From the NCBI GenBank assembly GCA_947259285.1, contig CAMYMR010000010.1, forward strand, positions 1-41,794: DNA of 41,794 nucleotides, read 5' to 3'. The DNA comes from an uncultured Woeseiaceae bacterium. GTDB lineage: Bacteria; Pseudomonadota; Gammaproteobacteria; Steroidobacterales; Woeseiaceae. A program made the translations under genes and the position numbers. Below, one piece after another: positions 11,056-17,957 of the stretch (positions are counted from its first letter, which is position 1; every line of letters starts with the position of its first letter). Under the pieces are notes generated by a model. It had not been told where the DNA came from, ran no database searches, and saw only the letters and a list, made by a program, of their open reading frames with translations.

Positions 11056-11245
11056 GGCGTCTCCTGCAGTGTTCGATACCGACCTGGAAACCTTTCGACC
11101 CTAAATTTCCATCTCGGGGTCGTGTTCTGTCGGAAGCATATGCGCATAACCGCTTCGGCGGTGAGCCTGTTGCGACCACGGCTGACCCCACCTTTTGCTC
11201 CGGTTCGAGAGCGAAGGTTTGTAACGGCACAGGCGGGAGACGCCT
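11056..11245 (+). ncRNA. ssrS: 6S RNA
   Basis: A transcript of about 190 nt between zapA and 5-formyl-THF cyclo-ligase, the conserved location of 6S RNA. The ends pair as a closing stem: GGCGTCTCC (11056-11064) with GGAGACGCC (11236-11244). Inside, a hairpin CCTTTTGCTCCGGTTCGAGA continuing to GCGAAGG, and the GTAACGGC segment before the 3' stem, resemble the E. coli 3' half. 6S RNA mimics an open promoter and sequesters sigma-70 RNA polymerase in stationary phase. The 3' end lies only about 5 nt before the next start codon. Exact ends are inferred. Confidence 0.88.
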
Positions 11246-13653: not shown

Positions 13654-13726
13654 GGCTGGGGGAGAGGGATTCGAACCCCCGTTGGCGGAGTCAGAGTCCG
13701 CAGTCCTACCGCTAGACGATCCCCCA
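13653..13726 (-). tRNA. tRNA-Gln (CTG anticodon)
   Basis: 74 nt with encoded CCA. The acceptor TGGGGGA pairs with TCCCCCA, the discriminator is G, the anticodon stem is GCGGA/TCCGC with loop CTCTGAC giving anticodon CTG (codon CAG), and the T-arm is GGGGGTTCGAATCCCTC. It starts 28 nt after the rpsI stop on the same strand with no promoter visible in the gap, so it is probably processed from the ribosomal-protein transcript. Confidence 0.95.
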
Positions 13727-16417: not shown

Positions 16418-17071
16418 ATGCAGACTACAGCCAAGAATCTCAGCGATGTGCCGGCAATCAATCGATTTCTGAGCTACTGCCGTGTGCGCACGGTGCCGTC
16501 GAAAACCGTGATGATCCATGCCGGCGACCTGCCCGACGTGCTCTATTACATCGTCGACGGTTCGGTCGAAGTCATGATCGAAGACGAAGATGGCAACGAA
16601 ATGGTGCTCGCCTACCTCAACAAGGGCCAGTTCTTTGGCGAGATGGGTCTTTTTTACGAGCAGCCCACGCGCAGCGCATGGGTGCGCACTCGCACCGAAT
16701 GTGAAATCGCCGAGATGACCTATCCGCGGTTTCGCCAGATCGCCAGCGAGAGCCCGGGTCTCGTATTCGAGCTTGCGACACAGCTTGCGACCCGCCTCGA
16801 TCGAACCAACCGCAAGTTGGGCGATCTTGCGTTCGTTGATGTTACCGGTCGAGTCGCGCACGCGATTATGGACCTCTGTAACGAACCGGACGCCATGACG
16901 CACCCGGACGGCATGCAGATTAAAGTCAGCCGCCAGGAATTGAGTCGCCTGGTCGGCTGCTCACGTGAAATGGCGGGGCGTGTGCTCAAGGTACTCGAAG
17001 AGCAAGGCCTGGTCTCGGCCAGCGGCAAGACGATCGTTGTCTATGGGGCACGCCCGAACCGCAAACTCTGA
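16418..17071 (+). CDS. crp: cAMP receptor protein (Crp/Vfr-type)
   Basis: 217 residues and very similar to E. coli CRP. The cyclic-nucleotide domain keeps the cAMP contacts GEMG (residues 74-77) and Arg-Ser (85-86) in FFGEMGLFYEQPTRSAWVR. The dimer helix reads TNRKLGDLAFVDVTGRVAHA, retaining the Thr and changing the neighbouring Ser to Asn. The C-terminal helix-turn-helix VSRQELSRLVGCSREMAGRV has the RE…GR recognition residues for TGTGA half-sites. It is a global activator of carbon and virulence-type regulons. A GAGGA site precedes the ATG. Confidence 0.95.
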   Translation: MQTTAKNLSDVPAINRFLSYCRVRTVPSKTVMIHAGDLPDVLYYIVDGSVEVMIEDEDGNEMVLAYLNKGQFFGEMGLFYEQPTRSAWVRTRTECEIAEMTYPRFRQIASESPGLVFELATQLATRLDRTNRKLGDLAFVDVTGRVAHAIMDLCNEPDAMTHPDGMQIKVSRQELSRLVGCSREMAGRVLKVLEEQGLVSASGKTIVVYGARPNRKL

Positions 17072-17097
17072 GATCGATGTCCGGATAACCGCGCTAT

Positions 17098-17290
17098 GTC
17101 AGGCATTGCCTGACGGCTGTGCCGGTTGGGCAGTTCTCCCTCATGGCTCAGGCGGCGCAACGGTACTTTGTTTCGACGAAGTAAAGCGCAGTGTCAGCGA
17201 GCCATGAGGAGAAATAAAGTACCGTTGCGATGCCTTCCGCTTTACTTCGGTCGAATTACCCAACCGGCACAGCCGTCAGACTACCAGTCT
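17098..17290. repeat. Interlocked inverted-repeat element between crp and rpe
   Basis: The outer arms are perfect 21-bp inverted repeats (17110-17130 and 17259-17279). Between them lie three further inverted pairs: B 17134-17149 with 17199-17213 (one bulge), C 17156-17169 with 17216-17229 (perfect 14 bp), and D 17172-17188 with 17238-17255 (one extra base). Their order is B C D B' C' D', so every pair crosses the other two and only one can fold at a time without a pseudoknot. Small hairpins overlap both ends: the palindrome GTCAGGCA-T-TGCCTGAC (17098-17114) and AGACT/AGTCT (17278-17290). There is no T-run, no reading frame and no clear target-site duplication. It lies between convergent genes and touches the rpe stop codon. 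Confidence 0.9.
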
Positions 17291-17957
17291 AAGTAGCAGA
17301 CGCTATCTCCGCTTTCATTGCGGCGATCGTCTTCGCGTAATCATCACTGCCAAATATTGCCGACCCGGCAACGAACGTGTCGGCTCCCGCCGCCGCGATT
17401 TCACCAATGTTATCGACCTTCACGCCACCGTCGATTTCCAGGCGAATGTCTCGCCCGCTGTCCATGATGATTTTCCTGGTCGCGCGGAGCTTGTCGAGGG
17501 CGGACGGAATGAATTTCTGACCGCCGAAGCCCGGGTTCACGGACATTAGCAATACCATATCGACCTTGTCGATCACATGGTCGAGCCAGGCCAGCGGCGT
17601 GGCGGGATTGAACACCAGCCCGGCCATGCAGCCGTGTTCATGGATCAGGCCAATGGAGCGGTCAATGTGTCGACTGGCCTCGGGATGAAACGTGATGTAG
17701 CTGGCGCCGGCCCTGGCAAAGTCAGGAATAATGCGATCGACGGGTTCAACCATCAGGTGCACATCAATGGGCGCTTCGATGCCGTAGCTTCGCAAAGCCT
17801 CGCAAATTAGCGGACCAATGGTCAGATTCGGGACAAAGTGATTGTCCATCACGTCGAAATGCACGATATCCGCGCCGGCTTCCAGCACGGCATTTACGTC
17901 GTCACCGAGACGGGCAAAATCAGCGGACAGTATCGAGGGGGCAATAAGTGGAGTCAC
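17289..17957 (-). CDS. rpe: Ribulose-phosphate 3-epimerase
   Basis: 222 residues. The TIM-barrel motifs are all visible: [31 protein letters not shown] with metal and catalytic residues, [25 protein letters not shown] and LEIDGGVK. It interconverts ribulose-5-phosphate and xylulose-5-phosphate. Downstream of djlA on the same strand with about 57 nt between; the stop codon overlaps the inverted-repeat element. Confidence 0.97.

Follow-up and report, generated by a model that had tools for sequence, protein, structure and literature searches.

Between the convergent genes crp and rpe of an uncultured Woeseiaceae bacterium (G000) lies a set of inverted repeats that cross one another. A preliminary description had suggested that these might be a switchable structured RNA, a shuffled miniature mobile element or a bidirectional barrier between the two genes. 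The question this raises is what kind of element gives rise to pairings that exclude each other. The window referred to below is the whole stretch of DNA that was analysed, 41,794 nucleotides in length.

Two nested copies between crp and rpe

Four inverted pairs occupy the gap, their arms arranged as A B C D B' C' D' A'. Pair B (17139-17149/17199-17209) is 11 nt long and 100% complementary, pair C (17150-17174/17211-17235) 25 nt and 88%, and pair D (17177-17188/17238-17249) 12 nt and 100%. The earlier description is confirmed as to where pairs A to D lie, the succession B C D B' C' D' and the way these three pairs cross, and the perfect 21-bp outer repeat described earlier is the outermost part of a longer arm A. 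RNA folding of 17072-17300 compared with shuffled sequences gave z = -7.3 for the plus strand and -7.5 for the minus strand (0/200 shuffles each). A covariance model built without the window matches C-D-B'-C' on the plus strand with 63.8 bits (E = 1.9e-14); this inner copy has a stem of 28 positions by gapless extension. A second copy, A'-D'-...-B-A, is present on the minus strand, and the inner copy sits where its small hairpin would normally be. The model reports the inner copy only, and the outer one is recognised by its two loop halves, GAAGTAAAGCG..GAGCCATGA as in the rest of the family, and its paired stem A. The parts are as follows, the identities of crp and rpe being NCBIfam matches.

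16418-17071, plus strand: crp, convergent, upstream (NF008732, 319.6 bits, cut-off 266)
17110-17279, minus strand: outer copy of the hairpin repeat, with pairs A and loop halves D'..B (L200, minus strand, 1481)
17110-17136, no strand assigned: arm A of the outer stem, 27 nt, 93% complementary to A', its outermost 21 bp perfect
17139-17149, minus strand: B, conserved loop of the outer copy, second half, reading GAGCCATGAGG on the minus strand
17150-17235, plus strand: inner copy of the hairpin repeat, stem C and loop (covariance model match 17160-17225)
17150-17174, no strand assigned: arm C of the inner stem, from the inverted-pair listing, with a double change in G036
17177-17188, plus strand: D, conserved loop of the inner copy, first half (inverted pair and covariance model)
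17189-17198, plus strand: small inner hairpin segment CAGTGTCAGC, the variable position of the family
17199-17209, plus strand: B', conserved loop of the inner copy, second half (inverted pair and covariance model)
17211-17235, no strand assigned: arm C' of the inner stem, from the inverted-pair listing
17238-17249, minus strand: D', conserved loop of the outer copy, first half, reading CGAAGTAAAGCG on the minus strand
17253-17279, no strand assigned: arm A' of the outer stem, from the inverted-pair listing
17289-17957, minus strand: rpe, convergent, downstream (TIGR01163, 314.5 bits, cut-off 212.6)

The stretch 17110-17279 is two nested, oppositely oriented copies of one dispersed hairpin repeat family, and its overall structure is a single long hairpin (A, loop, C, loop). 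B and D, which had been treated as independent modules, are the halves of one conserved loop that occurs twice in opposite orientation. B is complementary to B' and D to D' because the same asymmetric loop is present once per strand, in opposite directions, and since loop halves on opposite strands must be complementary, the crossing of B, C and D is a by-product. The module order is likewise what results when a copy is embedded in a second one that faces the opposite way, so that nothing has been shuffled, although of the three initial suggestions the mobile element came closest. Mutual exclusion holds among B, C and D but does not extend to A, which nests with C; the best predicted fold of 17098-17290 is A + C, at -102.0 kcal/mol. 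An apparent three-way RNA switch can thus arise mechanically from the nesting of one asymmetric repeat in another.

A repeat family with a conserved loop and a variable stem

The nest in the window is a curiosity explained, and the main finding is the family to which its two copies belong. Common to the copies of the family is an asymmetric loop that is conserved, GAAGTAAAGCG-(small variable hairpin)-GAGCCATGA; the stem that closes it varies in sequence among copies but remains paired. The stem is 24-32 bp long in 110/149 copies. The segment between the loop halves is 9 nt in 138/171 rows, with a maximum of 31, and can form a small hairpin; one of its two pairs covaries (G-C to C-G, 3 sequences), and in distant genomes this hairpin is longer and takes several different sequences. 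When 60 relatives were searched with the whole stretch, a full-length match was found in G036 (96%, 170 nt) along with dozens of partial matches, mostly limited to the middle, from D to B'.

Covariance analysis, which the preliminary description had proposed for any such family, shows strong covariation of the stem between copies. In 43 non-redundant copies, 90.2% of the cells in 18 stem pairs are paired and 259 cells are changed on both sides, compared with 66 +/- 8 in shuffles. Double-sided change is seen somewhere in every one of the 18 pairs, and sliding the partner by 1-3 columns lowers pairing to 34-53%. The stems also contain more G-T than A-C combinations, 225 to 56 in 107 copies compared with 351 to 230 for shuffled partners, the rows behind these counts including four single pattern hits that are taken as chance. 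Sense copies (40 to 3) and those that lie antisense to both neighbouring genes (43 to 4) share this bias equally, and for this reason the strand kept foldable appears to be the one bearing the loop motif, whatever the transcription of the neighbouring genes. Such a pattern fits a single-stranded DNA hairpin better than a device acting in mRNA. Both the covariation and the G-T bias could stem from a few ancestral copies rather than from independent maintenance. In G494 and G498, the 20 copies fetched from each have a longer, imperfect stem and are much more alike in sequence, as would be expected of the young copies of one element.

Several copies depart from the common form. L198 and L204 have a variant loop, GAAATAAAGCG..GAGCCATTTC, in which Watson-Crick pairs could replace the GA mismatches adjacent to the stem. 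At one orthologous site (L014 and L092) the stem is kept and the subtype of the loop centre has switched, CAGCGCAGC in the one and GACCGAAGG in the other, which suggests gene conversion between copies. A structured stretch takes the place of the small hairpin in L202, a copy in the same genome as the window (G000:C10, ~99150), and also in L005, with 79 nt between the loop halves; a similar stretch, apparently a second repeat, is found in the disrupted loop of L068.

The family is, apparently, an undescribed REP-like hairpin repeat. Its motif letters were not found in the literature text searched, which includes few subscription papers; with older stem-loop catalogues, such as that of Cozzuto et al. 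2008 (PMC2267715), the comparison is a general one. The stem-loop families of that catalogue are similarly intergenic and share a common predicted hairpin; the motif letters are absent from its main text, which deals with 92 families. Like the structured RNAs of Rfam 15, the family has variable helices round a conserved internal loop, but the strand with its motif shows no link with the way neighbouring genes run. Rfam searches at gathering and permissive thresholds, covering the element itself and 18 other copy-bearing loci, gave no match at gathering level, sub-threshold matches being at the level of chance (e.g. 12.5 bits against a cut-off of 38).

Placement, spread and mobility

The copies have a marked preference for certain gaps. 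Among 92 copies in Woeseiaceae, 47 lie between convergent genes, 18 are sense and 20 antisense in tandem gaps, 2 are in divergent gaps and 5 are at locus edges, and none is inside a gene as called by codon scoring. Gene pairs overall in the same 91 loci are 471 tandem, 92 convergent and 76 divergent (91/119 loci were used, the remainder being shorter than 6 kb or among 17 loci set aside as distant). A cruder ORF call placed 60 copies in convergent gaps, 22 and 19 in tandem gaps, 20 in divergent gaps, 25 inside ORFs and 18 at edges. On these figures the bias towards convergent gaps is smaller and the case for the convergent reading less good; the codon-scored genes were preferred, since the 'inside' and 'divergent' classes of the cruder call are swollen by long spurious ORFs.

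This placement would suit a bidirectional terminator or 3'-end protecting hairpin that is useful to the host, with a loop bound by a host factor and with spread by vertical descent and gene conversion in place of mobility. The preference for convergent over divergent gaps (47 vs 2 of 92) agrees with such a role, and a hairpin is often kept at orthologous sites with its stem much changed, a persistence that is also expected of a host-useful terminator. Yet orientation looks random, both in tandem gaps (18 sense and 20 antisense) and at orthologous sites, where 22 pairs have the same orientation and 17 of 39 are inverted, L001/L006 being scored as 'same' on its outer arms although the complete block lies the other way round with respect to crp and rpe. 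Antisense copies, as shown above, have no weaker a folding asymmetry than sense ones. TTTT occurs within 12 nt after the stem in 3/149 copies and AAAA before it in 5/149, and the copies are therefore not typical intrinsic terminators. A preference for convergent gaps and 3' placement has also been reported for REPs (PMC3733652), and a useful function sits poorly with the gaps in the distribution: at E <= 1e-4 the family was found in 57/73 genomes of the genus sample (Woeseiaceae), with 1 to 65 copies each, and no match was found in the other 16, while a sample of the phylum gave matches in 2/398 genomes, one of them the genome of the window itself (the filters used there lose weak matches). 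We thus regard a host-useful terminator as unlikely to account for the family.

Within the genome of the window there are 6 matches at E <= 1 and 5 at E <= 0.001, both counts including the inner copy. The exact pattern is present in 28/73 genomes of the genus sample, compared with 0/73 for a backwards-pattern control. Outside the genus the distribution is patchy, as judged from the phylum sample; a scan of named records places the family in at least the groups given here. Nine of 13 distant genomes searched with the model are multicopy and four have no match. The nine are three Coxiellaceae MAGs (28, 35 and 36 copies), two 'Deltaproteobacteria' (6 and 14), one Myxococcota MAG (4), two further gammaproteobacterial MAGs of unstated family (33 and 9) and G122 (6). 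The four without a model match, records of Nitrosomonas, Bacteroidetes, Lachnospiraceae and Bdellovibrionales, had each given a single pattern hit; only 5-8 of the 18 stem positions are paired in these hits, which are taken as chance. Viral contigs gave 0 matches to the outer arm and 0 to the loop pattern.

The reading we favour, and consider likely, is that the element in the window is a nest of one dispersed REP-like hairpin, mobile or formerly mobile, and that the interlocking is a by-product. Such a hairpin would be tolerated mainly behind genes and would be recognised as single-stranded DNA by a putative enzyme. As no mobilising enzyme was found, we infer mobility from variation in copy number, variation between sites and the nest itself. 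Differences in occupancy between sites could also be due to loss. Among 12 candidate empty sites, one is a self-match and only L037:16036 vs L114 aligns cleanly to both stem ends (77% flank identity, compatible with deletion); no target-site duplication was recognised, this being the one clean empty site. At L037:16036 the flank, when reverse complemented, is similar to the hairpin's left arm. Either the arm was copied from the flank or the empty site is a deletion scar, and loss explains the pair equally well; this one case fits an outer stem copied from flanking DNA.

REP, BIME and REPIN elements with their RAYT transposases (PMC3733652, PMC3116915, PMC2817692) are among the closest known systems. 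They too are short intergenic hairpins with tens of copies per genome, and they are reported to lie behind genes, often convergent ones, and frequently in pairs of opposite orientation (PMC3733652). The family consists likewise of multicopy short intergenic palindromes (57/73 genomes, 0/92 copies in genes). It differs in that its loop is conserved and its stem varies, with strong covariation between copies, and in having no GTAG or CGTC tag, no other conserved end and no link to a Y1 transposase. In the 149 of 189 copies that pass the stem score, no unpaired GTAG or CGTC tag was found at the base of the stem and no position within 20 nt outside the stem ends exceeds 44% for one base, although the ends were set for each copy separately in a mostly Woeseiaceae set, and a slightly displaced tag, a few bases off, could be lost in such a count. 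CGTC-type REPs, described as having no dedicated transposase (PMC3733652), are similar in being multicopy palindromes with no known mobiliser, but the family has no CGTC tag and does have a conserved internal loop. With regard to MITEs and DNA transposons, no conserved ends were found in the mostly Woeseiaceae set, and the longer, more homogeneous stems are those of G494 and G498 (20 copies each).

A RAYT was considered as the mobiliser and rejected. PF01797 (Y1 transposase) is present in 37/57 genomes with the repeat and 11/16 without it, and the carriers G034 (31 copies, 95% complete) and G001 (14 copies, 97% complete) yielded no Y1 transposase. Of the 48 genomes with a Y1_Tnp match, 8 loci were fetched, and none has a model match beside the gene. 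A tie between carriage of the repeat and a RAYT gene was not seen in these genomes, nor, in the 8 loci, repeats flanking the gene as known from REPs. A scan for a gene-bearing autonomous version across 1.40 Mb of fetched loci (loop halves up to 5 kb apart, stem at least 15/18) found none. Of the 8 cases it returned, seven have loop halves at most 126 nt apart, and the eighth (L020, 435 nt) is actually two separate copies flanking an ordinary gene. The family could serve as a test bed for the open question of what moves REP-like hairpins where there is no RAYT. Compared with ordinary REPs its logic is reversed: what is conserved is the loop, the stem can vary, and the strand able to fold seems to be preserved independently of transcription nearby.

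Many copies are paired in opposite orientation in the manner of BIMEs (e.g. G034:C23:4608/4699, G082:C9:12081/12234 and G082:C57:83197/83368), with a spacing of about 90-170 bp.

The crp-rpe site and the origin of the nest

The gap between crp and rpe was readable in 58 genomes of the genus sample. Five carry the family, 16 have another long hairpin and 37 have no long inverted repeat (67 genomes were taken, of which 9 were unreadable; 5/72 rows were duplicates, and of the 69 crp-bearing genomes all but G002 and G007 were fetched). G083, which has a loose motif match with neither a long stem nor a model match, was counted as 'none'. With both gene ends located, the gap is 0 to 300 nt long; if the rpe end was missing, the stretch taken was a constant 250 nt or ran to the end of the contig. 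The gap accepts hairpins readily, and this one is not needed there. A barrier between the two convergent genes, as first suggested, would suit the position of the nest, but 37 of the 58 gaps do without any long hairpin. Behind the convergent crp and rpe transcripts, the nested pair would probably act as an ordinary hairpin at most. Other long hairpins in the gap (L172, L173, L175, L177, L181-L183, L185, L188, L191 and L279) have recurring tips, AAATAGGGTG..CACCCTATTT, GGGACATTC, GGTACCGGACACC and GGGCCTGTCCC, and several hairpin families therefore seem to use the crp-rpe site in the genus.

G036 has the same nest at crp-rpe, with the whole block inverted relative to the two genes. When aligned in the same sense, the blocks of G036 and G000 differ at 6 of 170 nt, and all of these differences are in A or C pairs. 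Four of them make up two double changes from G-C to C-G, at 17124/17265 in stem A and 17162/17223 in stem C, two are one-sided and keep the pair, and B and D have none. With six matches in its own genome and compensatory changes in a relative, the idea that the element might be a one-off rearrangement, also raised in the preliminary description, fails.

Template switching at imperfect palindromes is a source of paired changes and inverted loops (PMC8794818), and both of its marks, double compensatory changes and an inverted block, are seen between G000 and G036. The stems of the family change yet stay paired and whole hairpins flip, plausibly through template switching during replication. Clear in-place flips are L109/L093, a doublet in L031/L050 and G000/G036; some of the other inversions may be replacements rather than flips, since most pairs have 70-80% flank identity and diverged stems. 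The hairpins described for template switching (PMC8794818) resemble the family in stems that change by paired substitution and in inverted loops, but template switching is a mutation mechanism rather than a repeat family, and its substrate in this case would be a dispersed element whose loop is fixed. The family may thus also help to show how far template switching, and not selection, makes the 'compensatory' changes that are taken as proof of functional RNA structure.

The same mechanism offers another origin for the nest, namely a local inverted duplication of one copy by template switching in place of the insertion of a second. The in-place inversions suggest that template switching does act on these hairpins (mechanism PMC8794818). 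The two stems A and C, however, are unrelated in sequence, and the loop subtypes differ, with GA..GA around the cap in the outer copy and CAG..C in the inner. A local duplication is accordingly an improbable source of this nest, and insertion of one copy into another is preferred.

A broader possibility, which we offer tentatively and think rather doubtful, is that these are mobile hairpins spread across phyla, in which a putative enzyme would read the folded single-stranded loop, copies would land in hairpin loops including their own, and template switching would rewrite the stem. If true, this would be an element that keeps its shape while losing its sequence identity.

As for the proposed switch, an RNA or cruciform alternating between exclusive B, C and D pairings to control crp or rpe expression, these pairs do cross, and forcing B/B' gives a predicted -99.0 kcal/mol, a cost of 3.0 kcal/mol in G000 and 2.8 in G036, an energy gap that seems too small for thermodynamics alone to decide against the alternative fold. 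A switch is nevertheless highly improbable, as forcing D/D' (-83.3 kcal/mol) costs 18.7 kcal/mol in G000 and 14.8 in G036, both pairings are imposed by two antiparallel copies of a loop that single copies elsewhere conserve without any partner, all six G036 differences fall in A or C, and 53/58 readable genomes of the genus do without the family at this site.

Small palindromes, GTCAGGCATTGCCTGAC and AGACTACCAGTCT, adjoin the nest, one on each side (17098-17114 and 17278-17290 of the window). Elsewhere in the window there is a 6S RNA gene at 11058-11243 on the plus strand and a tRNA gene at 13656-13726 on the minus strand.
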